A DNA stretch of 64,000 nucleotides from Deltaproteobacteria bacterium (GTDB taxonomy: Bacteria; Desulfobacterota; Syntrophia; Syntrophales; JACQWR01), in the NCBI GenBank assembly GCA_026388415.1, contig JAPLJV010000017.1:1-64000 (forward strand), in the 5' to 3' direction. Of the stretch, positions 6,638 to 49,591 are shown piece after piece. The notes under the pieces were generated by a model, which did no database searches, was not told where the DNA came from, and saw only the letters and a program-made list of their open reading frames with translations. A program made the position numbers and the translations under genes. Position 1 is the stretch's first letter; each line of letters begins with the position of its first letter.

Positions 6638-7594
6638 TTACGCTGTGCTGCCGTTGCTTTCCCGAAAAGTGCGCTCGGCCGTTGTCAGGCTCGTGATAGA
6701 GGCGCAACTAATATCTACGGTCTTGAAAAAATCACGCAGCGGCCGACTGGGCCCGATCTCATAGATCATATCTGTCCTGGCGGCAAGACATTTCATGTTA
6801 TCAACCCAGCGCACGGTGTTGCTGAGTTGTGATACCAGGCTGAACATAATTGCTTCCGGTGTGGCAGAATGGAATTGACCCGTGAAATTAGATGTAACGT
6901 CAACGGCGTGAGCCGCCAGCATATTATTGCCATGCTCCCGCAGGGTGTCGGCAAATCTTGCTCCGATGGGCTGCATAAAGCGGCTGTGAAAGGGGGCGCT
7001 GACGTTGAGCGGCACAAAGCGAAAACCCTGATCGTAACTGAAAGTCGCACGCAAACGGCTTTCCGCTTCGGGCAGGGCGCTGAGATAGCCGCTGATAACC
7101 ACCTGATGGGCGGAGTTAGCGTTGGCCACATCCAGGGGCAGATCGGCCAGATCGTGACGTACTTTTTCCAGATCAATGTTGCTGGAGATCACGGCCGCCA
7201 TGCCGCCCACACCAACGGGCACGGCCTGCTGCATGAGTTGACCGCGGATATGGACGATTTTTACGGCTTCAGCCAAAGATAGCACTCCCGCCGCCGTAAG
7301 GGCGGTGAACTCTCCGAGACTATGACCGCCGAATATGCTGGGAGCAAAGCCGTAACGAAAATGCAGGCCGCGCAGGGCGGCAATCTCCGTAGTCAGCAGG
7401 CACGGCTGAGTAAACTCCGTCAGGTTTAAGCGTTCATCGTCACGAAAACAAAGCAGGGACACATCCCAACCGAGAGCATCCGACGCCTCTTCATAGGTTT
7501 GTCGGCTGACGGCAAGCTCATCGTTAAAATCCTTTCCCATGCCCGTTCGCTGCGCGCCCTGACCGGGGAATACCGCTGCCACAATCTTTCCCAT
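6638..7594 (-). CDS. fabD: Malonyl-CoA:ACP transacylase
   Basis: First gene of the lipid operon. The 318-residue acyltransferase has FPGQGAQ (residues 9-15), the nucleophile elbow GGHSLGE with Ser92, and the distal SAPFHSRFM histidine segment. It transfers malonyl from CoA to ACP. The C-terminus runs to within 20 bases of the acyl-CoA dehydrogenase start. The start codon is preceded by GGAGTTAAAAGAAGCG, a rather distant ribosome site. A good sigma-70-like promoter lies about 160 bases upstream at 7755-7784. Confidence 0.9.
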   Translation of the reverse strand: MGKIVAAVFPGQGAQRTGMGKDFNDELAVSRQTYEEASDALGWDVSLLCFRDDERLNLTEFTQPCLLTTEIAALRGLHFRYGFAPSIFGGHSLGEFTALTAAGVLSLAEAVKIVHIRGQLMQQAVPVGVGGMAAVISSNIDLEKVRHDLADLPLDVANANSAHQVVISGYLSALPEAESRLRATFSYDQGFRFVPLNVSAPFHSRFMQPIGARFADTLREHGNNMLAAHAVDVTSNFTGQFHSATPEAIMFSLVSQLSNTVRWVDNMKCLAARTDMIYEIGPSRPLRDFFKTVDISCASITSLTTAERTFRESNGSTA

Positions 7595-7754
7595 CGCTTC
7601 TTTTAACTCCAGATCAAAGAAATATCTATTTTGGCATCATGAATATCTCGGCACGGAAATACCTACGCCACCGCCTGCAGCCCGCCTAAATATCTTGCAA
7701 CATACCGGGACATTGAATATTTTATTTTAGAAAGCGGGCTGTTGTTCCGGGGGG

Positions 7755-7784
7755 CTTATATTACAGATGAGAGTGCAGAGTCAA
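7755..7784 (-). promoter_or_regulatory. Sigma-70-like promoter of the lipid operon
   Basis: Read on the minus strand: TTGACT (7779-7784), an 18-base spacer, and TATAAG (7755-7760). It is about 160 bases upstream of fabD and points toward it. The long leader has no obvious terminator. Confidence 0.45.
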
Positions 7785-7868
7785 GTGCAATCGGTCTGCT
7801 TTATTTTACACCTCTGTATCATTCCTATTACCTGTAATCATATCACGTGCATCGGGGTCAGGGTGCAA

Positions 7869-7898
7869 ACGGCAGTGTTTCACGTGAAACACTGCCGT
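7869..7898. other. parS: parS-like centromere site inside a 30-bp perfect palindrome
   Basis: Positions 7876-7891 read TGTTTCACGTGAAACA, identical to the widespread bacterial parS consensus bound by ParB. The symmetry continues seven bases on each side (ACGGCAG before, CTGCCGT after), giving 30 perfectly self-complementary bases. It is 17 bases beyond the stop of the glycosylase gene. As RNA it could fold, but no T-run follows on either strand, so a terminator is unlikely. parS sites cluster near the chromosome origin, so the window is probably origin-proximal; parA/parB are not in the window. Confidence 0.85.
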
Positions 7899-7914
7899 CA
7901 CTTTGCCATATCCG

Positions 7915-8565
7915 TTAGATCCTCAGCGGACAAGCCTCGCAACGCCTTTCCTTCCCGCAGAATGACTTGCCTGCATTTACCAGGAGAGCGTGGTACTGAT
8001 TGTAGAGAGAAACGCTGACGGGAAGGTTGCCCATAAACAAGGCCTGAATCTCTGCATAACGTTCCTTACCTGCTAAAATGCCGTGACGCTCCAGAATTCT
8101 TCTTGTATAGGCGTCAATAACAAAGACCGGTTTTTCACCGGCATAAAGTAAAATACTGTCGGCTGTTTCATCTCCAATGCCTTTAATTTGAAGGAGTTTT
8201 TCCCTGAGTAGCCAGTGATCTTGCGCAAACATCTTGTCCAGTTGGCCATCATATTCATCATGAAGAAATCGGACAAAAGTTGCCAGTCTCCGGGCCTTGA
8301 CGTTATAATACCCTGACGATCTTATCAACGCCGCCAGCGTATCTATGGGGGTTTCATATATGTCTTGCGGATGGAGAATATCCGCCTCTTTTAATTTTGC
8401 AATAGCATACGTAACATTGCGCCAGGCCGTATTCTGCGTTAAAATGGCGCCGACAATGACTTCAAATGGCGAATCAGCAGGCCACCAGCGGAGGTTGCCG
8501 AAATGGCCATCAAGCCTGTCGTACATCGTCAGGAGGCGCTTGGCAATGCCGCGAGCGGTTTCCAT
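7915..8565 (-). CDS. Endonuclease III-like HhH-GPD DNA glycosylase
   Basis: A 216-residue base-excision repair glycosylase. VGAILTQNTAW is the family entry motif, the helix-hairpin-helix is LLQIKGIGDETADSILLYA, and the catalytic aspartate follows in VIDAYTRRIL. Where Nth has a catalytic lysine after the hairpin (GRKTA), this protein has glutamate (GDETA), pointing to a monofunctional glycosylase of the COG2231/MagIII-like group instead of an AP lyase. The C-terminal iron-sulfur loop shows three cysteines (CGKERRCEAC) and then ends at PLRI, so the usual fourth cysteine is missing. Cluster binding is therefore uncertain. Confidence 0.82.
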   Translation of the reverse strand: METARGIAKRLLTMYDRLDGHFGNLRWWPADSPFEVIVGAILTQNTAWRNVTYAIAKLKEADILHPQDIYETPIDTLAALIRSSGYYNVKARRLATFVRFLHDEYDGQLDKMFAQDHWLLREKLLQIKGIGDETADSILLYAGEKPVFVIDAYTRRILERHGILAGKERYAEIQALFMGNLPVSVSLYNQYHALLVNAGKSFCGKERRCEACPLRI

Positions 8566-8590
8566 GGCGTCTCACTTGCAGATGAACCCG

Positions 8591-10069
8591 TCAGGGACGA
8601 ATCGGCACCCAGGTGGTGAACTTCCCCCTTTTTATTAAAAGTGACACGCCTTCTTTGCTGCCGGCCTTGCCAATCTCCCGCTGATAATCCTTCAGGGAAT
8701 TGACTTTTACCTTGTTGACCTGCAGGATGAGATCCTGGGGGCGAATGCCGGCTTCATCGGCGGGACTGCCATCCGTTACCTCGACTACAATAACGCCTGC
8801 CTTTTGTGAAATGCCAAGACGATTGGCAATTTCAGGAGTAAGTTCCTGCACGGCCAGACCGAAATATTCGCCGCCGGCCGCCAGATCAGCTTTGTCAGTA
8901 CGTGCCGCAATCAACACCTGAAAAACCTTTTCCTGACCGTCATGGAGGGCCTTGATTTCCACCTTTTCTCCTACGCGGAAATCAGCCACGATCACCAATA
9001 ATTCGTGAGAGTTCTTAATCGGCCGGCCATTTACCGCCGTGATGACATCCCCGGACTTCAGGCCTGCCTTGGCTGCCGGGTCACCTTCAAACACCTCCGC
9101 GATCAAGGCCCCGGTGGGCTCTTTAAGCTTCAGGTTTTTGGCAATTTCCTCAGTGACATCCTGGATAGAAACACCAAGCCAGCCCCTTGATACTTCTCCC
9201 CTGGTTTTCAGTTCAGGCAGCATACGGTTGGCCATATTGATGGGAATGGCGAAACCAATGCCCTGGCCCTGGGCAACAATCGCCGTATTTATGCCGATCA
9301 CCTTGCCGTCCATACTGAAGAGTGGCCCCCCGCTGTTTCCGGGGTTAATGGAAGCATCCGTTTGAATAAAATTATCATAAGGACCGGCGCCGATGACACG
9401 ACCTTTGGCACTGACGATGCCCGCAGTAACGGTTTGTTCCAGGCCAAAGGGATTACCGATTGCCATCACCCAGTCGCCGACGCGTAATTTATCGGAATCG
9501 CCTATCTCTACGACCGTCAGACTCTTATTGGGCTTGATTTTAATCAGGGCGATGTCTGTTTTTACGTCCTTGCCAATAATCTTGGCTTCATACTCCTTTT
9601 CCCCGTCCGGTAACTTAACCAGGATCTTGTCTGACTGCTCCACAACATGATTATTGGTGAAGATGTAACCATCGGGACTGATGATGAATCCCGACCCCAG
9701 ACTTTTTTGCTTGAACTCGCGTTGCGGGATATCACCAAAAAACTTTTCGAAAAAATCATCACGCCCGAAAAAACGATCGAAAGAGTTGCCGCCGCCAAAG
9801 GGCGCTCTCTGCATGCCACCTTGTTGCCGAAGCGTTTTGGTGGTACTGATGTTTACGACCGCGGGCTTTAATTTTTCCGCCAGATCGGCAAACGAAACGG
9901 GCGCCCGCACCATGTCAACCGGGCCCAATGCAGAAGCCAATTGGACATCAGGCACTTTGGGAGCGAAAGCAGAGCGCAGTACTTCCACCAGAGAAACGAT
10001 GAAAAAGGCGACCAGAAACGCCAGGAAAAACATCATGAATGATTTTCTATTTTTGCTTTCTTTTAACAT
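8591..10069 (-). CDS. HtrA/DegP-family periplasmic serine protease (Do)
   Basis: A 492-residue protease-chaperone for misfolded envelope proteins. An N-terminal hydrophobic segment (residues about 11-30) serves as signal anchor. The trypsin-like domain has His141 in FTNNHVVE, Asp172 in KTDIALIKI and Ser246 in NPGNSGGPL. Two PDZ domains follow: the first around VSRGWLGVSIQDV to the EIKALHDG region, the second from about EYFGLAVQEL to the C-terminus. The full triad indicates an active enzyme. A flexible Gly/Phe/Arg-rich loop at residues 85-115 matches the Q-linker of DegP/DegQ. Monocistronic in appearance. Confidence 0.92.
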   Translation of the reverse strand: MLKESKNRKSFMMFFLAFLVAFFIVSLVEVLRSAFAPKVPDVQLASALGPVDMVRAPVSFADLAEKLKPAVVNISTTKTLRQQGGMQRAPFGGGNSFDRFFGRDDFFEKFFGDIPQREFKQKSLGSGFIISPDGYIFTNNHVVEQSDKILVKLPDGEKEYEAKIIGKDVKTDIALIKIKPNKSLTVVEIGDSDKLRVGDWVMAIGNPFGLEQTVTAGIVSAKGRVIGAGPYDNFIQTDASINPGNSGGPLFSMDGKVIGINTAIVAQGQGIGFAIPINMANRMLPELKTRGEVSRGWLGVSIQDVTEEIAKNLKLKEPTGALIAEVFEGDPAAKAGLKSGDVITAVNGRPIKNSHELLVIVADFRVGEKVEIKALHDGQEKVFQVLIAARTDKADLAAGGEYFGLAVQELTPEIANRLGISQKAGVIVVEVTDGSPADEAGIRPQDLILQVNKVKVNSLKDYQREIGKAGSKEGVSLLIKRGKFTTWVPIRP

Positions 10070-10238
10070 CTAAAACCCCCAGTCGCTCAGAAGACATAAT
10101 CTCTAATGGAATTATCGCCAAAAAATATCGTGGGCATTATAAGCATAATTTTATGATTGTCAATGATTATTGACAACACCGAATTGCCTCAAATAAAATG
10201 TTACCCAAGGAGGGGTTAAAAAGGGATCGTTGACTCAT

Positions 10239-10264
10239 AATTCGATGTTACCGAACATCGAATT
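10239..10264. repeat. Perfect 11-bp hairpin with four-base loop
   Basis: AATTCGATGTT (10239-10249), loop ACCG, AACATCGAATT (10254-10264). It lies 15 bases after the stop of the polyprenyl synthase gene (minus strand). A short T-run occurs about 20 bases further on that strand, too far for a classical intrinsic terminator; it could instead stabilise the mRNA end or bind a protein. Confidence 0.6.
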
Positions 10265-10279
10265 GCAGCTATTTACTGT

Positions 10280-11254
10280 TCAAAACCGACGTTCAATGAT
10301 GTACTGGGAAATTGTCAGAAGAGCGGTTTTCGCGTCGGAATCAGGAAAAACTTGCAGCAAGTTTTCAGCGTTGTCTATGTATGCCCTGGCCTTGGCGAGC
10401 GCATAATTCACGCCGTCATACTTGTGAATCAAGTCCACAATCTCCAGCAATTGATCGGCGCCCTCTGCTTTATGCTGCACCACTTTTTTAATCAGATTCT
10501 TTTCTTTGGCCGAACATTGTTTCAAGACCCAGATAAGCGGAAGGGTAATCTTGCCTTCCGTCAGATCCTTGCCGACCGCCTTCCCAAAATCATCTTCCTT
10601 GGCGACGTAATCCAGCGTATCGTCAGTTATTTGATAGGCGGAACCGAGCCGCATGCCGAATCTGGCCAGCGCCTCAATCTGTGCGTCCGGGGCATTGCCC
10701 AGTATCCCCCCCACGGCGCAGGCAGTTGATATGAGGAGCGAGGTTTTTTTCTCGATGATGGACAGGTATTCCTTCTCCGTAAGGTTGATTTTGCCGCACT
10801 TGACTAACTGAAATATTTCCCCCTCGGACATGGTGTTGGTCGTCTGGGAAACCAGCTTCATGATGGCGAGGTTGCCGTCGGAGGTCATGAGTTTGAAAGC
10901 GGTGGAATAGAGGTAATCGCCCACGAGGACACTGGCGGCATTGCCCCAGATTTTATTGGCTGAAACGCTGCCCCGTCTTATCTCGGCGCTGTCTATAACG
11001 TCGTCATGGAGCAGAGTGGCGGTATGCACGAACTCGATGACGACAGACATGTTGTCGCGCCGTTCCCCCCGGTAGCCGCAGAGATCGGCGGCGGCGAGCA
11101 GGAGCAGCGGCCGAAAGCGCTTGCCCCCGCTGCCGATGATGTGATGGATAACCTGCGGAATGAGGTGGATGTCCGAGCGAAGAGACTCTTCCATGCACTC
11201 CTCCACGCGGTTTAAATCGTCGCTGTAACGCTGAAATACGTCCTGTATCTGCAT
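10280..11254 (-). CDS. ispB: Polyprenyl (octaprenyl-type) diphosphate synthase
   Basis: A trans-prenyltransferase of 324 residues that builds the isoprenoid side chain of quinones from isopentenyl diphosphate. It contains GGKRFRPLL (43-51), the first aspartate-rich motif LLHDDVID (82-89) and the second motif QITDDTLDY. Two bulky-free residues before the first motif and the overall length fit long-chain synthases (IspB class); the exact chain length cannot be read off. It is followed by the hairpin at 10239-10264. Confidence 0.88.
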   Translation of the reverse strand: MQIQDVFQRYSDDLNRVEECMEESLRSDIHLIPQVIHHIIGSGGKRFRPLLLLAAADLCGYRGERRDNMSVVIEFVHTATLLHDDVIDSAEIRRGSVSANKIWGNAASVLVGDYLYSTAFKLMTSDGNLAIMKLVSQTTNTMSEGEIFQLVKCGKINLTEKEYLSIIEKKTSLLISTACAVGGILGNAPDAQIEALARFGMRLGSAYQITDDTLDYVAKEDDFGKAVGKDLTEGKITLPLIWVLKQCSAKEKNLIKKVVQHKAEGADQLLEIVDLIHKYDGVNYALAKARAYIDNAENLLQVFPDSDAKTALLTISQYIIERRF

Positions 11255-11666
11255 GCCGCCTCTGTTCTGGAATGGGCCAAACTGTGGTTTGCACTTTATT
11301 CCAATAACGGAGAGATGTCAAACCTTTCTCGTGCCCAGGCAATACTAGGGACATGAAATACCGTCTTCCTCCTACCATGAATTCGTATAGAATGATGTAT
11401 AATAGGTTTGTGCGGATTTAGGTATTTGTTCATGGGAAGGCAGGAGGACTCATTTCTTCCTGGGCATTAGAGCCCTTATTTCAGTACGTCCCAAGCTTCT
11501 ATGAACCATAATAGGTTGGTTGGATCGATTGAATCCTTGTCACGCTGGAGGATTGGTCTGGAGGCTTTCCGGACAGGTATTATTATGATTCCCTGGGCCT
11601 GTATGAAGTTCCAATCAAGGCTCCTTGGGTACAAAATGTGAAGGCAACCGGATGAAGATAATCGGT

Positions 11667-39069: not shown

Positions 39070-39415
39070 CCGAGTAACATTACCGGGTCAAGAGAGTATT
39101 CGGAACGGATGCGGGCAAGATCATGCAATTTATGAAATTTTTACCAGGATATGTTGCCGATCCCGAGAAATAATCTCTCTTGATCACTGGTTATTTATTG
39201 AACTCAATAAACGAGGTTGATGCTTTTGTGTCGCAGCTTTCCTTGTGTAATGCTCAGGCAGACTCAAGATCGGTGACGTTTTAAAATATTAAAGATCTAC
39301 ATTGAATCTATTTCCTTTTTTTGTTACTTTCGGCCCTGCTGCATAAACGGCCATCCTATCATGTAACCATGCAGGAAAGGGAACTGGCTTGTTTCCCCCT
39401 GAGAGGTCCAACCCA
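39070..39415. other. Intergenic region, AT-rich
   Basis: No gene seen. A small 7-bp hairpin TTTATTG/CAATAAA lies at 39194-39211. The GC content drops relative to both sides, fitting the left boundary of the acquired restriction-modification patch. A promoter for that patch should be here, but no strong match was found. Confidence 0.4.
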
Positions 39416-41650
39416 ATGAAACTTACCGATACGCTGAACACCGCAAAGGCCTTGTCATCATTAAGTTTATTCAACGTCAAAACGATCAAGGCCGTTGAAG
39501 CCGGCCTGCTGGAGAAGAACGGCAAAAACTATCTCAAATGCCCGGTACGGGGGAAGGAGATCCAGGTCAAGCCGGAGGAAGTTGTCCGGCAATTGTGGAT
39601 TCAACGCCTCCTATTGGACTATGGTTATTCCCTCTCCCGCTTGGCCGTCGAGTATCCCATCACCTTCGGCAGAGATACGTCGAAAAGGGCCGATATAGTG
39701 ATCTTTGACGCCGACCGGCCCACCGTTCCCTATCTGATCATCGAAGTAAAACAGCCCACCGCGAAAGGCGGAAAAGAACAGCTCAAATCCTATACCCATG
39801 CCACGGGCGCCCCCCTTGCCCTTTGGAGCGATGGGGCCCAAATCATCGTCTGGCATCGAAAAAATCCTAATTATTTTATTGAGATTCCTGACATCCCCAC
39901 AAGCTCGCAAATCATTGACGACATCATCGGACAGCCGTGGACCATCCAGACGCTTATCGATAAAGAACAGGCCCGTGAAAAGGATGGGCTGCGCGCCCGA
40001 TCGCTTCGTCAGCTTATCGAAGATATGGAAGATGAAGTTTTGGCCAATGCCGGCGTGGATGTGTTTGAGGAGGTCTTCAAACTCATTTTCACCAAGCTGT
40101 ATGACGAACTGGCCTGTTATCGCGGCCATTACAAATATCTGCGCTTCCGCAACGCCAATACGGCCGCCCAGCTCAAGGCCAACATCCAGAATCTCTTTGA
40201 TGATGCCAGAAAGGAGTGGGAAGGCGTCTTTCCCGATGACGAAAAGATCAAGCTCACACCCGATCATCTTCAGGTCTGCGTCGGTTCCCTGGAAGAATGG
40301 AAGCTCTTCAACTCCAACCTCGATGTCATTGACGACGCCTTTGAGTATCTGGTCACGAAGTCGGCCAAGGGAGAGAAGGGACAATATTTCACACCGCGCT
40401 GGGTTATCGACATGTGTGTGAGGATGCTTAACCCCAAGGAGGACGAAACGCTGATCGATCCTGCCTGCGGCTCTGCCGGCTTCACCGTGCATGGCATCTT
40501 TCATGTCTGGCGGCAAATTATGGTGGATGAAGGGATTGAGGCGTCCCACCTCTTTACGATGGAAGAAAAGCCGCAACGCTGTAAGGATTATGTCCGTGAC
40601 AAGGTCTTTGCCGTAGACTTTGATGAGAAAAGCGTCCGTGTCGCCCGCTGCCTGAACCTCATCGCCGGTGACGGCCAGACCAACGTCCTCCACCTCAACA
40701 CCCTGGATTGGCGCAAGTGGGACGAAACGATCAAGCAGCAGGACTGGGTGGACACCTACAACGAGGGCTGGAAAAAGATCCGCAAGCTGCGCGCGTCAAA
40801 AGATGGTTTCCGGGCCTTCCAGTTTGATATTTTGATGGCGAATCCGCCCTTTGCCGGGGATATTAAACAGACGGACATGCTGTCCTCCTATGAACTTGCC
40901 CACAAGCTCAGTAAGGACGGCTCTCAGGGAAAACTGGAGAACGCCGTTGGTCGCGACCTGCTGTTTATCGAACGTAACCTTGATTTTCTGAGGCCCGGCG
41001 GGCGCATGGCCATTGTTTTGCCGCAAGGCCGGTTCAACAATGCAAGCGACAAGAGGGTGCGTGAGTTCATCGCGGAAAAGTGCCGCATCCTGGCCGTCGT
41101 GGGCCTCCATCCGAGCACTTTCAAACCCCACACAGGCACGAAGACCAGCGTCCTGTTCGTCCAGAAGTGGAATGACGATCCCGCCGCCGGTCCCCTCTGT
41201 CCTCGGGTTCAAGATTACAATATCTTCTTCGCCACCCAGAAGCTGCCTTCCAAGGATTCTTCGGGCGACAAGATCTTTGTCGAAAGGCCAAAGGTTTCCA
41301 TCTTCGAGACGGACGAAACGTCAAACAAAAGCACGTTAAACAAGTATGATCGCCCTGATTTCCTGAAAAAATATGGCACCGTAAAGAGGGCCACCATCTA
41401 CAGGATCAAGGAAGGCGGCCAAAACGCAACGATGAATCTGGAAGGCATTGAAAACGATTTCGGCGGTTTGGATAAAGTTGAAAAATCCCTGAACATGGTC
41501 ATGCCCATCGAGACCAAAGAACGGGTCCGGGACGCCCACGGCCATTGGATCGTCCAACACGACCTGTTCAATCACGACGGCCTGACCCAGGACGGCATCA
41601 CCGAGGCCTTCGCCGAATTTGCCAAGAAAGAGGGCCTAAGTTTTTTTTGA
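39416..41650 (+). CDS. Restriction nuclease-adenine methyltransferase fusion
   Basis: A 744-residue protein combining both activities of a restriction-modification system. Residues about 55-150 match the HsdR N-terminal nuclease fold: RADIVIFD with Asp93, then LIIEVKQPTAKGG with Glu110-Val-Lys112 (PD-(D/E)XK), and LWSDGAQIIVWHR. Residues about 290-620 are an HsdM-type N6-adenine methylase: GQYFTPRWV, SAM motif DPACGSAGF at 348-356, catalytic NPPF at 476-479. No helicase motor is present here or nearby, unlike classical type I systems. ATG follows GAGAGGT. It overlaps the specificity gene. Best described as a type IIB/IIG-like (BcgI-type) arrangement, an inference. Confidence 0.8.
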   Translation: MKLTDTLNTAKALSSLSLFNVKTIKAVEAGLLEKNGKNYLKCPVRGKEIQVKPEEVVRQLWIQRLLLDYGYSLSRLAVEYPITFGRDTSKRADIVIFDADRPTVPYLIIEVKQPTAKGGKEQLKSYTHATGAPLALWSDGAQIIVWHRKNPNYFIEIPDIPTSSQIIDDIIGQPWTIQTLIDKEQAREKDGLRARSLRQLIEDMEDEVLANAGVDVFEEVFKLIFTKLYDELACYRGHYKYLRFRNANTAAQLKANIQNLFDDARKEWEGVFPDDEKIKLTPDHLQVCVGSLEEWKLFNSNLDVIDDAFEYLVTKSAKGEKGQYFTPRWVIDMCVRMLNPKEDETLIDPACGSAGFTVHGIFHVWRQIMVDEGIEASHLFTMEEKPQRCKDYVRDKVFAVDFDEKSVRVARCLNLIAGDGQTNVLHLNTLDWRKWDETIKQQDWVDTYNEGWKKIRKLRASKDGFRAFQFDILMANPPFAGDIKQTDMLSSYELAHKLSKDGSQGKLENAVGRDLLFIERNLDFLRPGGRMAIVLPQGRFNNASDKRVREFIAEKCRILAVVGLHPSTFKPHTGTKTSVLFVQKWNDDPAAGPLCPRVQDYNIFFATQKLPSKDSSGDKIFVERPKVSIFETDETSNKSTLNKYDRPDFLKKYGTVKRATIYRIKEGGQNATMNLEGIENDFGGLDKVEKSLNMVMPIETKERVRDAHGHWIVQHDLFNHDGLTQDGITEAFAEFAKKEGLSFF

Positions 41651-43104
41651 CAAGCCCCTTTGACGAGGCCAAGTACAGGGCTTTGTTGGAGGGGCTGGAA
41701 GTAGCGGAGATACATCTATCGGAACTTGAACGAACTATGAGGATAGATGCGGAGTTCTTTGGCAAATCGTTTCTGGATGTTGCCGGATGCTTAAAACAAA
41801 TACAAACGGAAGCGCTAACGAAAGTGGCCAGCATTTCAGATGGCAATCATTTCAGCATCAGCGATGAATTTCAAGAAGAAGGGATTCCCTACTATCGCGG
41901 TCAGGACGCTACCGGGCACTTCTTTATAGAACAGGCGCAGCCCGTTTATATACCTTATCAGGCATTTGCCTTACCTTATATGAGGCGTTCTCACCTGCGT
42001 AAGGGTGATGCTCTGCTTTCCATAGTCGGTACAATCGGTGAGTTAAGCCTTGTCAGTTCAGAATCCGAGGCAACATGTAGTTGCAAGCTGGCAATTCTTC
42101 GTCCTCAAACTATCAAATCTGGTTATCTATCAGTTTTTCTCAAGTCTCGGTACGGACAATATCAAATACACCGCCTCACGCGGGGCGCTGTGCAAATGGG
42201 CCTTTTACTGGAGGACATGGATCAGATAAATATCCCAAGATTTCCCGTTGAGCTTGAGGAGGCCATAGAAAAGAGTGTCCATGGAGCAAAAATATTTCTT
42301 GATAACAGTATCAGGTACTACCGGCATGCCGAACAAACACTCCTCCGCGCTCTCGGCCTTGAGGATTGGCAGCCGCCGGAAGTTTTGACCTATGAACGCA
42401 AGGCCGGCGATGTCTGTGCCGCCGGACGTTTGGATGCGGAACATTTTCAACCTAAATACGATGAACTAATCCGAAAGCTGTCAATAGTAAATAGCGTGGA
42501 CCTACGGCCAATTAAATATTTTTCCGAACCACTGAAATACGGTACGTCGGAAAAGCTTGTTTATGAGGCTGAGGGTATTCCATTTTTACGTATAGCCGAT
42601 CTTGACAACAAACGTTTCAATCCTCAATCGGTACAATATATTTCAAAGACCCAGGCGTCTAGCATTTCGGATCGAGTATCCCTCGGAGATGTACTCGTTT
42701 CCAGAAGCGGTACCCTTGGCCTTGCCGTACCGATTACAGAACCATTTAATAACGCCGTATTCGGCAGTTATTTTATACGTACACGTCCGGATCGTAAGGT
42801 TATCCATCCAGAATTTATGTCGCTATTCATTAACTCACTTGCCGGTCAGTTGCAGGTGCATCAAAAAAGCACCGGCGGCGTGCAAATGAACCTAACTATA
42901 GAAGCAATCGAAAATATTTGCATTCCGATAGGAAACCTTAGATGGCAGCAATCTTTTGTTGATCTTGTTGAACAAAGCTTAGCCGCCCGCAAACGAGCCC
43001 ACTTCCTCCTGGATCAGGCGAAACGAGCCGTCGAGATCGCGATTGAAAAGAATGAAGAGGCAGCCATGGCATTTTTAAAACAATCGCAGGAGTCATCATT
43101 ATGA
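41647..43104 (+). CDS. Restriction-modification specificity subunit (HsdS-like)
   Basis: DNA-recognition subunit of about 485 residues. Two target-recognition halves are visible: the first from about AKVASISDGNHFSI with KGDALLSIVGTIGE and LTRGAVQMGLLLEDM, the second from about RPIKYFSEPLKYGTS with LGDVLVSRSGTLGL and STGGVQMNLTIEAI. GxxLxSxxGTxG and GxxQ-type motifs are typical of HsdS. The likely start is TTG at 41647, overlapping the stop of the methylase gene (TTGA); the open frame extends further upstream without family match. Stop overlaps the next gene's ATG. Confidence 0.8.
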   Translation: MTSPFDEAKYRALLEGLEVAEIHLSELERTMRIDAEFFGKSFLDVAGCLKQIQTEALTKVASISDGNHFSISDEFQEEGIPYYRGQDATGHFFIEQAQPVYIPYQAFALPYMRRSHLRKGDALLSIVGTIGELSLVSSESEATCSCKLAILRPQTIKSGYLSVFLKSRYGQYQIHRLTRGAVQMGLLLEDMDQINIPRFPVELEEAIEKSVHGAKIFLDNSIRYYRHAEQTLLRALGLEDWQPPEVLTYERKAGDVCAAGRLDAEHFQPKYDELIRKLSIVNSVDLRPIKYFSEPLKYGTSEKLVYEAEGIPFLRIADLDNKRFNPQSVQYISKTQASSISDRVSLGDVLVSRSGTLGLAVPITEPFNNAVFGSYFIRTRPDRKVIHPEFMSLFINSLAGQLQVHQKSTGGVQMNLTIEAIENICIPIGNLRWQQSFVDLVEQSLAARKRAHFLLDQAKRAVEIAIEKNEEAAMAFLKQSQESSL

Positions 43105-43431
43105 GTGATATCAAAATATCCCAACTTAACGGAGATAAGGTCAATGAAATCGTGGGTACCTCCGCCGACATCGAAAAATCTCTACAGACCCTGATTGAAA
43201 ACCATGCTGTTCTATTTTGCCTTCAAGCGGATCAAAAATTTTGCTTGCATCGAGGTACATCCAACCGCTCAGAAACTGCTGGTCTTTGTTAAAGGCGATC
43301 CTGATTCTCTCGAGCTTGAGAATAACAAAGGCTTTCTCCGGGATGTCCGGAAGGGGTTTTATCAGGAAATAATCCAAGAATTGTTTGCTGGGGGATCATC
43401 AGGGAAAAAAGATTGTACCTCAGCGGGATAA
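43101..43431 (+). pseudogene. Collapsed DUF91/NucS-like (DUF5655-type) endonuclease gene
   Basis: The reading frame opens with MSDIKISQLNGDKVNEIVGT and ADIEKSLQTLIENH, the standard N-terminus of a family of predicted PD-(D/E)XK proteins. It should continue with a nuclease core (RIDTLG, IIEYK), but at about 43196-43215 the sequence jumps, in another frame, to FAFKRIKNFACIEVHPTAQK, the family's C-terminal domain, ending GFLRDVRKG. So roughly 200 codons are deleted and the frame is shifted. The ATG overlaps the specificity gene stop, so the intact ancestor was the third gene of the restriction operon. The 3' part is antisense to the GNAT toxin gene. Confidence 0.65.
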
Positions 43432-43897
43432 ATCCGAACTTTTCGTAGAAAGCTGCAACATTCTGATTCTTCGCATTTACGAACAATCCAACAACGCCTG
43501 CGGTATTCCTGATGGCAGCGGCCACCCGTCGCATGGCATCAACCAGGAGAAGTCTGCCATAATTCTTGCCCTGGCAGCTTTTGTCAACGGCCAGTCTGCC
43601 CAGTTTAACTGCGGGGAGATGTAGCCTTGGAAGTTTCTTCCCGTATTTTTCCGGTACTTCTGACAAGTCCACCTCCAAAAAAGAGAGTGTAAAGAATCCC
43701 AGGATTCTCTGAGACTCTGACTGGTTTACCAATACATAGGTATTGGCGATCCCCTTTTTCAAATGCTGGCGTGCCATCTTTTGTAAATACTCGTTGAGGG
43801 CCGGTTCTCCACAGTCGAAGGCATCGCGGTCATGGTGATTGGTATCCAGCAGGCAAATGATTAAATTCGCTGTCATCTCAATCTCGGGATTCGACAA
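43289..43897 (-). CDS. GNAT acetyltransferase toxin (TacT-like)
   Basis: A 202-residue GNAT protein resembling toxins that acetylate aminoacyl-tRNA. The acetyl-CoA motif A is LGRLAVDKSCQGKNYGRLLL, preceded by LPAVKLG and followed by VGLFVNAKNQNVAAFYEKFGFIPL. It opens with the family phrase HDRDAFDCGEPALNEYL. The C-terminal ~25 residues past GLFPD run into sequence antisense to the nuclease relic and are probably not native. It overlaps its antitoxin gene by 20 bases. Confidence 0.82.
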   Translation of the reverse strand: MSNPEIEMTANLIICLLDTNHHDRDAFDCGEPALNEYLQKMARQHLKKGIANTYVLVNQSESQRILGFFTLSFLEVDLSEVPEKYGKKLPRLHLPAVKLGRLAVDKSCQGKNYGRLLLVDAMRRVAAAIRNTAGVVGLFVNAKNQNVAAFYEKFGFIPLRYNLFSLMIPQQTILGLFPDKTPSGHPGESLCYSQARENQDRL

Positions 43898-44180
43898 GGC
43901 GCTTATGGGCGCGAAAAGCTTCCTGCAGTTTTTTGTTCGGCACCGGCGGTCTGGTCAATGAATCAATGAAAATCTGCGCATCCCGTGACGATAGTTTAAC
44001 CATTTCCATACTGTGCAAGACTTCATTTGCCCGCTCCACGGAGGCTTGAACGACAAACTGGCTGATCGTCGCTCCATAAACTGCCGCTGCGCGTTCTATG
44101 ATTCTCCGTGTGGAGTGAGGCACCCTGGCCGTGATCCGATCATCGGCCATCCCATTATTCTTTGCCTGCGCAGTTTCCAT
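43878..44180 (-). CDS. DUF1778 ribbon-helix-helix antitoxin (TacA-like)
   Basis: Antitoxin and operon repressor of the adjacent GNAT toxin. The 100-residue product (ATG at 44180, eight bases after GGAGG) contains DDRITARVPHSTRRIIERAAAVYG and TISQFVVQASVERANEVL, the DUF1778 RHH domain, then a C-terminal toxin-binding tail LSSRDAQIFIDSLTRPPVPN. A longer frame upstream has poorly spaced starts. Promoter-proximal palindrome at 44219-44231 is its likely operator. Confidence 0.85.
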   Translation of the reverse strand: METAQAKNNGMADDRITARVPHSTRRIIERAAAVYGATISQFVVQASVERANEVLHSMEMVKLSSRDAQIFIDSLTRPPVPNKKLQEAFRAHKRLVESRD

Positions 44181-44218
44181 AATCATTTCCTCCCTGACCG
44201 AGCGATATATCATAGTGG

Positions 44219-44231
44219 TGCCAAAGTGGCA
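44219..44231. promoter_or_regulatory. Candidate operator TGCCAAAGTGGCA
   Basis: A 5-bp inverted repeat with three-base centre, 39 bases upstream of the antitoxin start, overlapping a minus-strand promoter candidate TTGCCA, 17 bases, TATATC. Autorepression by an RHH antitoxin at such a site is expected from related systems. Confidence 0.4.
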
Positions 44232-44384
44232 ACAATAATTTGCGGGAATAATCATATACTCGTATCTTATGACGTAGAGAAAAATCCGAAGCTTTACTAC
44301 GTTTCAATCGGAATTCAATCATCTGGCCCGCCTATCGAAACCGATGACTTGTATTTGCACGACTTAAGCGTGTTTAATAAAAAT

Positions 44385-44419: not shown

Positions 44420-44628
44420 GCGGTAGCTCAGGTAAACCCAGTTGATTGGTTCGGTAAACAAGGCACAGAGTACATCAAGTCTTAGATGTGCGGCTGGGTT
44501 AAATCGCTGGCCCGGACTGGCCGGTAGAGGAGTAGACGGTAGATCAAAAAAACGGTTTCCCTGATGGTTGGAGTCCCGGCGGTTTATTGCCCAGTCACTT
44601 GGGTAATAAACCGCCGGGATTATTTATT
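44420..44628 (+). ncRNA. Possible structured small RNA of about 200 nt
   Basis: Between a promoter-like site and a strong terminator there is no open frame, but complementary segments: AACCCAG (about 44437-44443) with CTGGGTT (about 44495-44501) enclosing an inner ACATC/GATGT hairpin, then a CGG/CCGG-rich stretch and the terminal hairpin. It does not match any RNA family I can recall. It lies between a toxin-antitoxin pair and the AOR operon (both on the minus strand). Confidence 0.35.
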
Positions 44629-44640: not shown

Positions 44641-45141
44641 TTATCCCTCATACCGTATTGTATCGCCAAGTTTTTTGGCTTCCGATATCTTAAACGCCGC
44701 GTCTCTCTTCTTCACGAGGCTTTCTTTTGCCGGCTCAACGAAATCAACCGCTTTTACATCGCAGAACCTCACGCACTGGGGGTCACCGTCGCAAAGGTCG
44801 CACTTGAAGACCTTTTTATCCCAGGGATTGAAGTTCATGGCGCCGAAGGGACACACAGCCACACAGGAGCGGCAGACGATGCAGAGGTCATGGTCAATGT
44901 GTACCTTGCCCAATTCCTCGTCCCGGGAAATCGCTTTCACGGGGCAGACGTTCAGGCAGGGAGCGTCCACGCACTGCCGGCAGGCCATTGGTATATAGAG
45001 ACCTTCCCATTCCCATTTTTCCACTTTTATACGTGACCTGGCGGGATTTGACACGCCGTCGTGCCACACTGAACATACGAGCTCGCATCTTCTGCAGCCC
45101 GTGCATTTTTCATGATTGATCATGAGAACTTTTGTTTCCAT
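44641..45141 (-). CDS. Polyferredoxin, electron-transfer subunit of the AOR enzyme
   Basis: A 166-residue iron-sulfur protein of the HycB/DMSO-reductase-B class with four [4Fe-4S] motifs: CTGCRRCELVC, CRQCVDAPCLNVC, CIVCRSCVAVC and CDLCDGDPQCVRFC, each followed by a CP- or C-type closing residue. It should accept electrons from, or give electrons to, the tungsten enzyme encoded just upstream (27-base gap). Similar small subunits accompany AOR-type enzymes including BamC of benzoyl-CoA reductase. Last gene of the operon. Confidence 0.88.
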   Translation of the reverse strand: METKVLMINHEKCTGCRRCELVCSVWHDGVSNPARSRIKVEKWEWEGLYIPMACRQCVDAPCLNVCPVKAISRDEELGKVHIDHDLCIVCRSCVAVCPFGAMNFNPWDKKVFKCDLCDGDPQCVRFCDVKAVDFVEPAKESLVKKRDAAFKISEAKKLGDTIRYEG

Positions 45142-45168
45142 TCAATTCCTCCTATATTCTCTGGCCTC

Positions 45169-47133
45169 CTATATTCTTGAGGGCTCCTTGTCAAAGTTGT
45201 CGAGACCAAGCCGCTTGAGCGTCTCAGGTTTGGGTATGCCGTTTTCATCGCATCCCTTATGCTGATAAAACTCCGCTCTCATCTTCAGGAATTTGTCCCT
45301 TTCAATGACTGAGCCTATTACGTCAGGCGCCCCGCGCCGGGCCGGTTCATCGTGATACCGGTCGGCGAGAACGTCGCCCTTGTGGGGATCGTCCTTCTTG
45401 TATCCTTCCCGGATATTGAACAGTTTCTCAATCATATTGCACCGTTCGGCTACATACCAGATATCCGCAGGCGTCATTTCCAGCCCGGTGTTGTAATACA
45501 GCACCTTGGACCAGTCTTCGAAATTCGGCAAGGTCGCACCCAGGAATGTTGTGTGATACTTGCAGATGCCGAGACAATCCACGCCCATATAACAGTTTTC
45601 GTGCCAGAACACCTGCCACGGTTTGCCGATATACTCCCGGTGATCCGAGCTTAATGGTCCGTCGTAGGGAATCGGACTGCCGTATATCTTCCTCATGACG
45701 TCCTGGGGGAGATGGTAAAGGTCAATGGCCGGACGGCTCCGGAGGTGGTCGGAACCCCTGGACGCCGTAGCGATGTTTAATGCCAGCCCCGGTGTTGCCC
45801 TTTCATCGGAATGAAGATTGCTCATGCCCTTGACATGAATAAGGTATTTGAATGAATTCTTGCCGATCTTCTCGGACGCCCTGATGCCGCCTTCGGCCAG
45901 CAGGTCGCCTAACGGGGTGTCTCTCTTGCAGATATGATGAACCATCTCGAGCAGGGCTTCATCGTTGCCGAAGCGCAAGTCAAGCCCGCCGGTGTCCTTG
46001 CTGGTGAGGATACCTTCTTCGTAGAGCTCCATGGCCCAGGAGATGAGGCTGCCAATCTCGAGGTTATCCACGCCGAACTGATCCACCAGGTGGTTACCGA
46101 TCAGAAGCGTTTCGAGTTTCGTGCATCCGGGTTCGCCGCAGAAAGCGCCTTGAGATGTGTATTCCGGACCTTCTTCGTACTTTCCTACCACGCCGAATTT
46201 CTCCGCCAGCGCGCTGTGGGGAATCTTGTATTTTGCCCGGCAATGTACCTGACAACCGAAACAGGCCGTCATGTTGTGCTCGCCGACTGTTTCCTTGGAA
46301 ACCTCATCCACGTGTTCCGGCTCGACATCGTCGGCGTAGAGGAGCTGGTTGTACTGGAAATTATTTGTTCTGATGCCACCCCAGGAGTTTGTCGCCCCCC
46401 AGATGAAAGGCGTTCCCAATGCACCCTGGGTCTGGTTAACTTTCGCACTCGCGATCTGTTCAATGAACCGCTTGTCGAATTCCAGTGCCTCTTTGGGATG
46501 GGCGATCTTGATGTCCATGGTACCACGGGCCGCCACGAGTTTCAGCTTCTTCGAGCCCATTACGCAACCGCCTCCGCCTCGTCCGTTAGCGTTTTTGATG
46601 CCCGTCATGACATTGGCGTATCTGACGAGGTTCTCGCCGGCCACACCGCATACAGCGCACTTGATATCGGGATCGCCTAACTCTTCCCGTACCGCCCACT
46701 GGGCTTCCGTAACCGATTTTCCCCAGAGGTTTTTCGCGTCTTTGATCTCTATCTCACCGTTGTGCACCCATAGATAGACGGGCTTGGCAGCTTTGCCCTT
46801 CACCACGATATGATCAAATCCAGCCCACCGCAGCTCCGGAGCGAAGAAGCCTCCCATATTGCCACTTCCCAGCAGATTGGTGAGGGGGTTTTTACACATG
46901 ACATCCGTTCTGGCAGGCGCCGATGCCAAAGTTCCGCCTAAGACGCCGGCACTGAATATTACCACGTTGTCAGGGCCTAAGGGGTCGCAACCCGGCTTTG
47001 CATATTTATACAGTAAATATGAGGCAAGCCCTCTGCCGCCAAGGAAAGCTTTTCTGACCGCCAGGGGAATAACCTTTTTTTCGATTACACCTGTCGTCAG
47101 GTCTACTACAGCTAATTTTCTGTCTAAAGCCAT
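45169..47133 (-). CDS. Aldehyde ferredoxin oxidoreductase family, tungsten enzyme
   Basis: A 654-residue tungstopterin enzyme. The N-terminus (AVVDLTTGVIEKK, FLGGRGLASYLLY), the ARTDVMCKNPLTNLLGSGNMGG pterin segment, and the [4Fe-4S] ligands Cys291, Cys294, Cys298 (ACFGCQVHC) with the fourth in DCLGIC are standard. The family oxidises aldehydes to acids with ferredoxin, or runs in reverse; BamB uses the same fold for benzoyl-CoA. The start ATG at 47133 lies one base after the zinc-ribbon gene. Its neighbours (LUD/Fe-S, CCG, polyferredoxin) suggest a membrane-independent redox complex; the substrate is not evident. Confidence 0.9.
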   Translation of the reverse strand: MALDRKLAVVDLTTGVIEKKVIPLAVRKAFLGGRGLASYLLYKYAKPGCDPLGPDNVVIFSAGVLGGTLASAPARTDVMCKNPLTNLLGSGNMGGFFAPELRWAGFDHIVVKGKAAKPVYLWVHNGEIEIKDAKNLWGKSVTEAQWAVREELGDPDIKCAVCGVAGENLVRYANVMTGIKNANGRGGGGCVMGSKKLKLVAARGTMDIKIAHPKEALEFDKRFIEQIASAKVNQTQGALGTPFIWGATNSWGGIRTNNFQYNQLLYADDVEPEHVDEVSKETVGEHNMTACFGCQVHCRAKYKIPHSALAEKFGVVGKYEEGPEYTSQGAFCGEPGCTKLETLLIGNHLVDQFGVDNLEIGSLISWAMELYEEGILTSKDTGGLDLRFGNDEALLEMVHHICKRDTPLGDLLAEGGIRASEKIGKNSFKYLIHVKGMSNLHSDERATPGLALNIATASRGSDHLRSRPAIDLYHLPQDVMRKIYGSPIPYDGPLSSDHREYIGKPWQVFWHENCYMGVDCLGICKYHTTFLGATLPNFEDWSKVLYYNTGLEMTPADIWYVAERCNMIEKLFNIREGYKKDDPHKGDVLADRYHDEPARRGAPDVIGSVIERDKFLKMRAEFYQHKGCDENGIPKPETLKRLGLDNFDKEPSRI

Positions 47134-47134
47134 G

Positions 47135-47407
47135 TTATTTTTCCTCCTTCTTCTTCTTTTTAGGTCCCTTTGCCAGGATCTCCTGCGCCAGCTTCTGGCT
47201 CGTCTCCCATACGGGGCCTTGTATGCGGGGCAAACCTGCATTGACCCAGAATATGCGCCACTCAGAACCGCACAGCTCGCACTTGACCACTTTTTGCCCG
47301 GGCGGCGGGGTTATTCTGGCGGTGCAACTCGGATTATGGCACCTTACCTGTCCATATGTCCTTGTTGACCTGAGACTTTCCGCTGTTGACATTTTGTCTT
47401 CTGCCAT
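47135..47407 (-). CDS. Small zinc-ribbon protein of the AOR operon
   Basis: A 90-residue protein with CHNPSC and CELCGSEW, two cysteine pairs 21 residues apart, the layout of a zinc ribbon or rubredoxin-like site, and a lysine-rich tail (KGPKKKKKEEK). It begins seven bases after GGAGG and ends one base before the AOR start. I do not recognise a family; a role in assembly or electron transfer for AOR is inferred only from position. Confidence 0.65.
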   Translation of the reverse strand: MAEDKMSTAESLRSTRTYGQVRCHNPSCTARITPPPGQKVVKCELCGSEWRIFWVNAGLPRIQGPVWETSQKLAQEILAKGPKKKKKEEK

Positions 47408-47433
47408 TCTTTTTCCTCCATTCTTTAGAAGTA

Positions 47434-48162
47434 TTATTTGGATGAACCTTGGTAGGCCCGACTCAAAAGCTCCATGGGATGGACAACCTTCATCCCCGTA
47501 CCAGCCTCAATCTGCAAACCGCAGCCCCCGCATTCCGTCACCGCAATTTCAGCGCCGGAGGCTTTGGCCTCTTCCCAAACCTTGCCCGCGATTGCTGTGG
47601 AACGGGCAAAATTTACCTTCTTCATACCGTATGAACCTCCCATGCCGCAGCAATTGATGTTGGTCTTCACTATGGTCAGGCCGGGTATCAACTGCAAGAG
47701 CCGCACGGGCGCATCAATAATGTTCTGCACTTTCAGATGGCAGGGATTGTGGTAAAAAACCTTTAAAGGCATGGCGTTAAAATCCGTATTCAGCCTTCCC
47801 TCACCGTGCAGCCGCCAGAGATATTCGCCGGCGTCGTAAATATGGTCAGCCACGAAACGCGCCTCTTCGCTGTCAAAAAAAGGCAGGCCTTCTTTACGCA
47901 GCATCATGTTGCAGCTCGGGCAGGTAGTAACGATGTCGGAATCGGGGAATGCAGCCTCCTTGAGGGATTTGACGATGTAATTGTAATTCTTGCTGGCTCC
48001 TGCCAGGTTGCCGTTAGCCATCATCGGCATGCCGCAGCATTTCTGGTCCGGCACGATGACCTCAAAGCCGTTTTTCTCCATAACGTGAACGAGGGCTTTG
48101 CCCATCGCCGGGCTGTAATAATTGGAAAAACATCCCGTAAAGTAGATTATCTTATTGGCCAC
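47434..48162 (-). CDS. CCG-domain Fe-S protein (LutA/HdrB-like)
   Basis: A 242-residue protein with two CX31-39CCGX35-36CXXC-type domains: YFTGCFSNYYSP to KCCGMPMM to TTCPSCN, and FYHNPCHLKVQN to INCCGMGGSYG to VTECGGCG. Such domains bind the non-cubane clusters of heterodisulfide reductase HdrB, or a [4Fe-4S] in LutA. It overlaps the LUD/Fe-S gene by 11 bases, so the two form a unit that could pass electrons between a disulfide- or hydroxyacid-type substrate and the AOR enzyme. Confidence 0.85.
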   Translation of the reverse strand: MANKIIYFTGCFSNYYSPAMGKALVHVMEKNGFEVIVPDQKCCGMPMMANGNLAGASKNYNYIVKSLKEAAFPDSDIVTTCPSCNMMLRKEGLPFFDSEEARFVADHIYDAGEYLWRLHGEGRLNTDFNAMPLKVFYHNPCHLKVQNIIDAPVRLLQLIPGLTIVKTNINCCGMGGSYGMKKVNFARSTAIAGKVWEEAKASGAEIAVTECGGCGLQIEAGTGMKVVHPMELLSRAYQGSSK

Positions 48163-49456
48163 TCCTGCTTCCTTTGAACCAGTCTTTAAATGTTATGCGG
48201 TGAAAAGTCGGTAAATGGGCATCGCGGTGCACCCCGGTGAAAAGCTGCATGAAGAACTTGGTAATGGCCAGGTTCGTCAGCCGGTTCGACAAGGGAGCGG
48301 ACAGTGAACCCAACTTAGCAAGGAGCTCCGGGTCGTCGAGCATCCTTTTCTTTATACTCCGCGCATGTCTGGCGTAATGTTCGAACTGTGACTTCCAGAT
48401 CAGCGTCGGGATGTCAATATCCACCGGGCATTCCACCTCGCATCTACCGCAATGCAGGCATGCATCCACGGCAGGCAGCCACCCATTGAGGAATCCCCAG
48501 AGGTAATTTTTCGGACTGTAAACCATGCCCTCTTCCATGGCCAGTTGCTGCCCAATGGGGCACTGACGGGCACAGGCCCGGCAATCAATGCAGAGGAAGA
48601 GATCCTTGTAAACATTTTCCAGGATCCGACTGCGTCCGTTATCAAAGATAATTACATGCAGCTCCAGATCAGGGTTGTCCGGGAGAACCGGCAGGCTGTC
48701 AAAATCAAATTTTTCCGCCTCCCGGGGCATAAGGTCCAGAAGGATGCTCTCGAGGCCAAAGATGCCCATGCACCGCGTATGAAAAAGCGCCTCCTCGCTA
48801 TCCTTCAGGATCTTCTCCAGACTGACAATCAAGACCACCTTTTGCGCCTGTTCCAGGTCTTTGGAGATATTCGACATGTGCTGCAGGAAGAAAACGGCGC
48901 CATCATCGGCTGAGATGGCATTGACACCGAGGATCGCCAGATAATTACGAGCCGCTCTGGCGTGACCAGTACCGATTGTTTGCTGCGCTGCAAAAGATTC
49001 CACCAGTCCCCGGCCATGCACGCCCGGCAGTGACCAGTAGTCTTGCACCTGTTTCTGAAATGTCCCTGCTTCAAAATGCTGAAACTCTCGGAAATAGCGG
49101 AGGTAGCTCGTGAAACCAGCCTTCTCCAGCTCCGGTCGGAGTTCATTGACCACGACATTCGATTTGTTCAGGGAAACAATATTTATCCCGGCGGCAATAC
49201 TCCTGATGTGAGAGGCGGCTTCCTTGGCATCACCCGCCGTGGTCACCATCACCTTGCCGTATCGGCTCAGGGTCCCTTGCAGGAGAGCCAGCAATTCAGC
49301 ATGGTTATCCCGCGTTGCGCGGCGAATCTCTATCAGGCGTTCTTTGATGGCAGCGATGTCGGGCTGCTTCTCTTTGCGCACGAAGATACCGGCGGCCCGG
49401 TGCTTACTTTGCTCAGCCGCTGGTTCTACCACTATCATCCGGGGAATGTCGGTCAT
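48152..49456 (-). CDS. LUD-domain protein with ferredoxin domain (LutB/C-like)
   Basis: First gene of the AOR operon, about 434 residues. The N-terminal ~270 residues are a LUD domain (KVMVTTAGDAKEAASHIRSIAAG, KSNVVVNELRPELEKAG, GVNAISADDGAVFF), followed by CIDCRACARQCPIGQ and CLHCGRCEVECPVDID, two [4Fe-4S] motifs, and a C-terminal HdrC-like helical part. This resembles LutB of L-lactate utilisation. I favour ATG at 49456 over a TTG four codons upstream, because GAGAG is well spaced from it. The LUD protein and the CCG protein mirror LutAB but are tied to AOR. Confidence 0.85.
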   Translation of the reverse strand: MTDIPRMIVVEPAAEQSKHRAAGIFVRKEKQPDIAAIKERLIEIRRATRDNHAELLALLQGTLSRYGKVMVTTAGDAKEAASHIRSIAAGINIVSLNKSNVVVNELRPELEKAGFTSYLRYFREFQHFEAGTFQKQVQDYWSLPGVHGRGLVESFAAQQTIGTGHARAARNYLAILGVNAISADDGAVFFLQHMSNISKDLEQAQKVVLIVSLEKILKDSEEALFHTRCMGIFGLESILLDLMPREAEKFDFDSLPVLPDNPDLELHVIIFDNGRSRILENVYKDLFLCIDCRACARQCPIGQQLAMEEGMVYSPKNYLWGFLNGWLPAVDACLHCGRCEVECPVDIDIPTLIWKSQFEHYARHARSIKKRMLDDPELLAKLGSLSAPLSNRLTNLAITKFFMQLFTGVHRDAHLPTFHRITFKDWFKGSRSGQ

Positions 49457-49591
49457 AACGTCTCTCAATATATACTTAACTCAAGGCACATTGATTTAGG
49501 GTGCGGCAAACAGCAACAGGGGCAGATACGACTTCTCCCTCCGGGAAGATCAAATGAGCGCGATTTCTCTCTTCCGGCACAATCAAGTAGC

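Follow-up and report, generated by a model that had tools for sequence, protein, structure and literature searches.

A conserved zinc ribbon-AOR-ferredoxin unit joined to an optional LUD-CCG pair in a Syntrophales contig

Introduction

The closest described relatives of the locus reported here are built on an AOR-family large subunit and a ferredoxin. AorABC of Aromatoleum aromaticum (a Class III WOR; PDB 8c0z) combines them with the flavoprotein AorC, its ferredoxin holding four clusters, and Class II WORs (WorLS) consist of WorL and an adjacent WorS with four [4Fe-4S] clusters. A homologous large subunit and ferredoxin are found in the AOR-type enzyme of PDB 9mqx, presumably the electron-bifurcating WOR (Class IV) of Acetomicrobium mobile. 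In Class II benzoyl-CoA reductase, BamBCD(EFGHI), an AOR and a ferredoxin are accompanied by Fer4/CCG-type components. The nearest counterparts of the LUD-Fer4_8 and double-CCG architecture are LutAB of LutABC, LdhH and GlpC, and quinone is the usual acceptor for GlpC/LdhH-like CCG proteins. As given in the main text of PMC13328260, only five of 92 tungsten oxidoreductase clades have a member with a defined physiological role.

We analysed a window of 64,000 nucleotides (contig JAPLJV010000017.1, assembly GCA_026388415.1), in which genes for a LUD protein, a CCG protein, a small zinc-ribbon-like protein, an AOR and a ferredoxin form one operon. By the criteria stated in the main text of PMC13328260 its core would fit Class II, but that text names no zinc ribbon, LUD or heterodisulfide-type module. 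Unlike AorABC, the operon has no flavoprotein, has a zinc ribbon and LUD-CCG in addition, and encodes an AOR in which the active-site Glu and Tyr are replaced; the FAD subunit that marks Class III (WorN) is absent from it and present in some relatives, where an AorC-like flavoprotein is a linked module. It also lacks WorABC genes, which sets it apart from 9mqx. A literature search for a zinc ribbon or a LUD protein with an AOR found no description of such a system, and the five-class scheme, as presented in the main text of PMC13328260, includes no module of LUD, zinc or heterodisulfide type, whereas we regard the present system as a WOR that has interchangeable modules and a zinc-ribbon partner of its own; the supplementary neighbourhood table of that paper may contain these genes unremarked.

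Results

Reading of the open reading frames placed five genes head to tail on the minus strand, from 49456 to 44641, in the order LUD, CCG, zinc ribbon, AOR and ferredoxin. An earlier sequence-only reading had proposed this operon, and both the reading frames and the domain matches bear it out. The LUD gene (48152..49456, minus; 434 aa from ATG, with a TTG at 49468 likewise open) overlaps the CCG gene (47434..48162, minus; 242 aa, GTG start) by 11 bp. After 26 bases comes the small zinc-ribbon gene (47135..47407, minus; 90 aa), whose stop lies, as the same reading had it, a single base from the ATG of the AOR gene (45169..47133, minus; 654 aa), and a further gap of 27 bases leads to the ferredoxin gene (44641..45141, minus; 166 aa). 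The base composition of the operon is that of the window (53%). Just past the ferredoxin stop there is a 20-bp near-perfect inverted repeat (44573..44620), which we rejected as a canonical terminator of the operon, its T-rich tail being on the plus strand.

The LUD protein, which is LutB-like with two [4Fe-4S] sites, matched Fer4_8 above the Pfam cut-off, while the LUD domain itself (PF02589) reached 16 of the 22.6 bits of its gathering threshold and the LutB model TIGR00273 gave 78 bits against a cut-off of 445. Its AlphaFold model (mean pLDDT 54) matched LutB of the LutA-LutB model (9a6l_B, E 3e-13) as well as the LUD structure 2g40; at this low model confidence, the matches support a LutB-like fold in overall outline only. 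Eight ligand Cys of this protein are conserved among its homologues. The CCG protein resembles LutA and the C-terminus of GlpC: its CCG domain scored 93 bits, the GlpC model gave 251 bits against a cut-off of 278, and it contains two complete CCG (noncubane 4Fe-4S) motifs. In the first motif C11, C42, C43, C81 and C84 are conserved (C84 in 92% and the others in 100% of homologues), and in the second C141, C171, C172, C211 and C214 (all in 100%). Thus, the pair scores under the LutB, LdhH and GlpC cut-offs, and the operon encodes no LutC, leaving the three-gene set of LutABC incomplete.

For the small zinc-ribbon-like protein no Pfam or NCBIfam family match exceeded any cut-off, and a resemblance to FpoO was dropped at 16 of 25 bits. 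In agreement with the sequence-only reading, which had described it as a new gene, it is an uncharacterised protein with four conserved Cys (C-x4-C...C-x2-C; C23, C28, C43 and C46), kept in at least 95% of 35 homologues, and it carries a conserved LPRIxGPVW motif. Neither a profile search of the PDB (best E 0.018) nor a fold search (best E 0.11, with a hairpin-like model of low confidence) found a significant relative. The AOR is a WorL-like large subunit with AFOR_N and AFOR_C domains (PF02730 and PF01314, 233 and 313 bits, both over the cut-off). The ferredoxin, of WorS/AorA type, has four 4Fe-4S clusters, whose 16 Cys are kept in at least 98% of 57 homologues, and its best PDB matches were 8c0z_C (A. 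aromaticum AorA) and 9mqx_E (E about 3e-38). Its C-terminal tail is about as long as the AorA helix that builds filaments, making filament building here a candidate function only.

To find out how widely this arrangement occurs, we surveyed 395 genomes of the phylum with profiles of the zinc ribbon, the AOR and the LUD protein. Matches were found in 54 genomes for the zinc ribbon (51 at E<1e-10), in 49 for the AOR at E<1e-190, and in 12 for LUD. Zinc ribbon and AOR clade occurred together in 47 genomes (Fisher p about 1e-53, relatedness ignored), and nine of the 12 LUD genomes had the AOR clade (Fisher p about 6e-7, relatedness again ignored); in one of the other three (G303) the contig edge falls inside LUD. 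The full five-gene order was found at ten distinct loci including the window, duplicates counted once, in families f1, f31, f45 and f74 and in a named Syntrophorhabdaceae MAG that possibly belongs to one of these. In a LUD scan of named genomes, this MAG (L023) and an uncultured one (L025) had the complete order, and L024 had LUD-CCG only. The arrangement is therefore not a chance one and not unique to a strain, as it recurs at ten loci in at least four families. At most core loci the zinc ribbon immediately precedes the AOR and the four-cluster ferredoxin immediately follows it, and it is this zinc ribbon-AOR-ferredoxin unit that is conserved, LUD-CCG being optional. The proposal that a LutAB-like pair is welded to the AOR thus holds in so far as the two are joined at ten loci, but not as a fixed union. 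Where the core is more distantly related (AOR identity 48-53%), a shorter zinc ribbon is found further along.

At least four electron-transfer modules, LUD-CCG among them, occur at the core, and they almost exclude one another. Among 48 core loci we counted LUD at 11 (one locus counted twice), an NrfD-ferredoxin module at eight, an AorC/PadH-like flavoprotein at six and a TmcC/HmcE-like iron-sulfur membrane anchor at four. A single locus (L074) has two modules, and its flavoprotein goes with an additional, divergent AOR. At 20 of the 48, some of them on short contigs, none of the four modules was present; at these loci the modules may lie elsewhere or may not be needed. A genome from the window's own family (G010) provides a natural deletion of LUD and most of CCG: inside a 306-kb contig, LUD is gone and only CCG residues 171-237 are left (L014, 7398-7655), upstream of an intact core of zinc ribbon, AOR (84%) and ferredoxin (83%). 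At L101 (G229; 6700-11408) a distant AOR, with Cys at the Glu313 position and Met at the His448 position, is followed by ferredoxin and a likewise distant LUD-CCG pair with no zinc ribbon, and the set adjoins a GABA-type aminotransferase. The swapping of modules, the loss in G010 and the pairing with another AOR at L101 argue that LUD-CCG is a swappable and losable electron-transfer adaptor. The zinc ribbon, which stays with the core while LUD-CCG is swapped or lost, would rather be the AOR's own partner, probably an obligatory one, as a structural subunit or an assembly factor.

The residues around the active site set this AOR apart. The second-shell set of aldehyde-oxidising WORs is, in Pyrococcus AOR (PfAOR) numbering, Thr243, Glu313, Tyr427 and His448 (PMC12096430; main text of PMC13328260). 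Glu313 is proposed to be the proton acceptor, with His448, and Tyr427 to position the substrate (PMC12096430), and equal roles were proposed for Glu331, His464 and Tyr443 of AorB (PMC10413684). Characterised AORs show only conservative single substitutions at second-shell residues (PMC12096430). In an alignment to Pyrococcus AOR, the window AOR has the cysteines of the [4Fe-4S] cluster (C291, C294, C298 and C524) and two of the four second-shell residues, Thr243 (T241) and His448 (H463). Glu313 is replaced by Thr326 and Tyr427 by Ser442, with further changes of Ala426 to His441, Pro429 to Glu444 and Cys447 to Asp462. These replacements run through the clade: the Tyr427 position is Ser in 48/48 AORs and the Glu313 position Thr in 47/48 (Ala in L094), and all 48 keep Thr243, His448 and the cluster cysteines. 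Since Glu313 and Tyr427 are central to the proposed mechanism, aldehyde chemistry is uncertain here, and the aldehyde/acid interconversion put forward from sequence is not secure.

The window's genome has a Bam-like cluster separate from the operon, on contig C58 (L018), with two AORs, ferredoxins, HdrA-like, CCG-type and NuoE/F-like genes and an AMP ligase. Both C58 AORs, to which the window AOR is about 28% identical, carry in a 'KC' motif a Cys that we took to be the BamB tungsten ligand, Cys322 of G. metallireducens. This Cys is absent from the window clade, and an acidic residue occupies the region in the window AOR, as judged by sequence alignment and not by structure. In a tree built by a quick method, the clade of 48 was split at 100% SH-aLRT from the Pyrococcus, Aromatoleum, Haloferax and 9mqx enzymes and from Bam-type AORs alike; several outgroup branches are long, and only this clade separation was used. 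We considered horizontal transfer without adopting it; the operon matches the window in base composition, and in the tree the window AOR grouped with AORs of other families, apart from those of f13, a different family of the same order. The AOR thus represents a distinct branch of the family. We infer that its metal is probably tungsten; the tungstate transporter WtpA was looked for and not found.

To get clues to the pathway we examined neighbouring genes. No aromatic genes lie beside the operon within the window. In relatives, two enzymes of the benzoyl-CoA pathway that scored above cut-off, 6-oxocyclohex-1-ene-1-carbonyl-CoA hydratase and its matching dehydrogenase, are encoded beside the core (L082, L111, L112 and others). 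Further neighbours are, at L091, UbiX, phenylphosphate carboxylase beta (which also passed its cut-off) and a pair resembling phenylphosphate synthase; at L064, L066, L072 and L081 a PaaK-like ligase; and at L025 an aminotransferase, a TrpB-like gene and an indolepyruvate-oxidoreductase-like gene. The window's genome also encodes a 6-oxocyclohex-1-ene-1-carbonyl-CoA hydratase over the cut-off. The neighbours in relatives and the gene content of the genome support an involvement in aromatic or aryl-amino-acid metabolism and point to no specific substrate. In this genome, which is 98% complete, we found no MqnA/D match and no MenD over the cut-off. A quinone acceptor is accordingly doubtful in this organism, and we dropped quinone as a certain acceptor.

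The flanks of the operon hold type I restriction-modification-like and toxin-antitoxin genes on one side and type II secretion-like genes on the other. The former include a TacA-like antitoxin and GNAT acetyltransferase pair (43289-44255, minus), a probable toxin-antitoxin module, and type I restriction-modification-like reading frames (39389-43104; methylase, specificity-like), named by reading their translations.

Discussion

We consider it moderately probable that the operon encodes a soluble tungsten-type oxidoreductase acting on an aromatic-pathway intermediate, with LUD-CCG as its electron adaptor. In such a complex the AOR would hold one [4Fe-4S] cluster besides its bis-pterin metal site, the four-cluster ferredoxin would take or deliver its electrons as AorA and WorS do, and LUD (two [4Fe-4S] clusters) with CCG (two noncubane sites) would connect the ferredoxin wire to an acceptor or donor, a place that may be taken in relatives by the NrfD-ferredoxin, the TmcC-like anchor or an NAD-type flavoprotein. 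Electrons would pass from the substrate at the pterin-bound metal to the AOR [4Fe-4S] cluster, through the ferredoxin's four clusters and LUD's two to the two noncubane sites of CCG, and on to a further partner; the direction could be oxidative, electrons leaving via LUD-CCG, or reductive. This chain is possible because the cluster ligands are conserved in every protein, and related enzymes are known to form nanowires from their large and small subunits (PMC10413684 and PMC13328260). Against this reading stand the loss of Glu313 and Tyr427, the lack of aromatic genes beside the operon in the window, the doubtful quinone acceptor and the absence of LUD-CCG from most core loci. The likeliest substrate would be a low-potential intermediate, such as an aldehyde or an acid, from the anaerobic breakdown of aromatic compounds or aryl amino acids.

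The altered active site leaves room for an enzyme that does not handle aldehydes at all, a reading that is quite possible even if we do not expect it. The changed second shell (Thr326, Ser442 and the new His441, Glu444 and Asp462) would then serve a different two-electron reaction at low potential, with an intermediate of an aromatic pathway as substrate, much as BamB acts on benzoyl-CoA. Half of the aldehyde-type second-shell set is replaced in 48/48 clade AORs, BamB is without these residues and this was tied to its different reaction (PMC12096430), and benzoyl-CoA and phenol-type genes adjoin the core in relatives; BCR is the sole known non-aldehyde member named in the main text of PMC13328260. 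Yet Thr243 and His448 remain in place, another acid close by (Asp462 or Glu444, for instance) could stand in for Glu313, the BamB-type Cys is absent, and the genome already owns Bam-like genes. Somewhat more tentatively still, the clade could join benzoyl-CoA reductase as another type of tungsten enzyme whose reaction is not on aldehydes; it would have an obligatory zinc-ribbon partner and interchangeable electron modules, and would catalyse a low-potential step in the anaerobic degradation of aromatics across Desulfobacterota-like bacteria. The sequence-only reading had likened the operon to BamBCD, and as an analogy this stands: Fer4_8 and a double CCG, divided between LUD and CCG, recall BamD, and AOR with ferredoxin recalls BamBC. 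That it is an atypical complex of BamBCD type that reduces aromatic rings is very improbable and already strongly disfavoured by the Cys missing at the BamB ligand position, which the Bam-type AORs of the separate C58 cluster do have, by the low identity to these AORs and their separation in the tree, and by the absence of BamE-I-like genes from the operon.

It is rather unlikely that the AOR is an ordinary one for aldehyde detoxification, sharing its operon with a separate LutAB-like pair that oxidises a hydroxyacid. Lactate use is known to involve LutAB-like genes (PMC3924224), LUD-CCG and the core part company in G010 and L024, and GlcD-like and CCG genes are located near IclR in L025/L064, L072 and L100. 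However, the five-gene order is retained in at least four families, LUD-CCG is joined to a second, distant AOR at L101 and swaps with other electron-transfer modules, LutC is absent, and the LutB score is far under its cut-off.

With Glu313 and Tyr427 lost, a zinc-ribbon partner and swapped modules, the clade can be recognised by sequence, and its pathway context is plausible. It makes it possible to test concretely if aldehyde chemistry requires the glutamate that is proposed to be catalytic. It also connects LutB/LutA-like proteins with an enzyme that has no part in lactate oxidation, and may thereby shed light on the role of LUD-CCG pairs as electron carriers.

Several other genes accompany the core. 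Near 30 of the 48 core loci there is a gene for an IclR regulator, in many cases upstream and in divergent orientation. A MoaD-like protein is encoded near 20 of them; a link between MoaD genes and AORs was described as early as 2006 (PMC1779556). EutA-like genes were observed directly after or near the ferredoxin in L067, L071, L086 and L113; L067 has a MetF-like gene in addition, upstream of its zinc ribbon. Near the core in 11 loci (for example L065:11304-12623, L087:8620-9945 and L022:9841-11277) lies a radical-SAM-like protein family whose members have about 440 residues (Pfam 24.9 of 29.5 bits) and which is possibly a maturation factor; a protein resembling it is encoded beside another AOR in the window's own genome.
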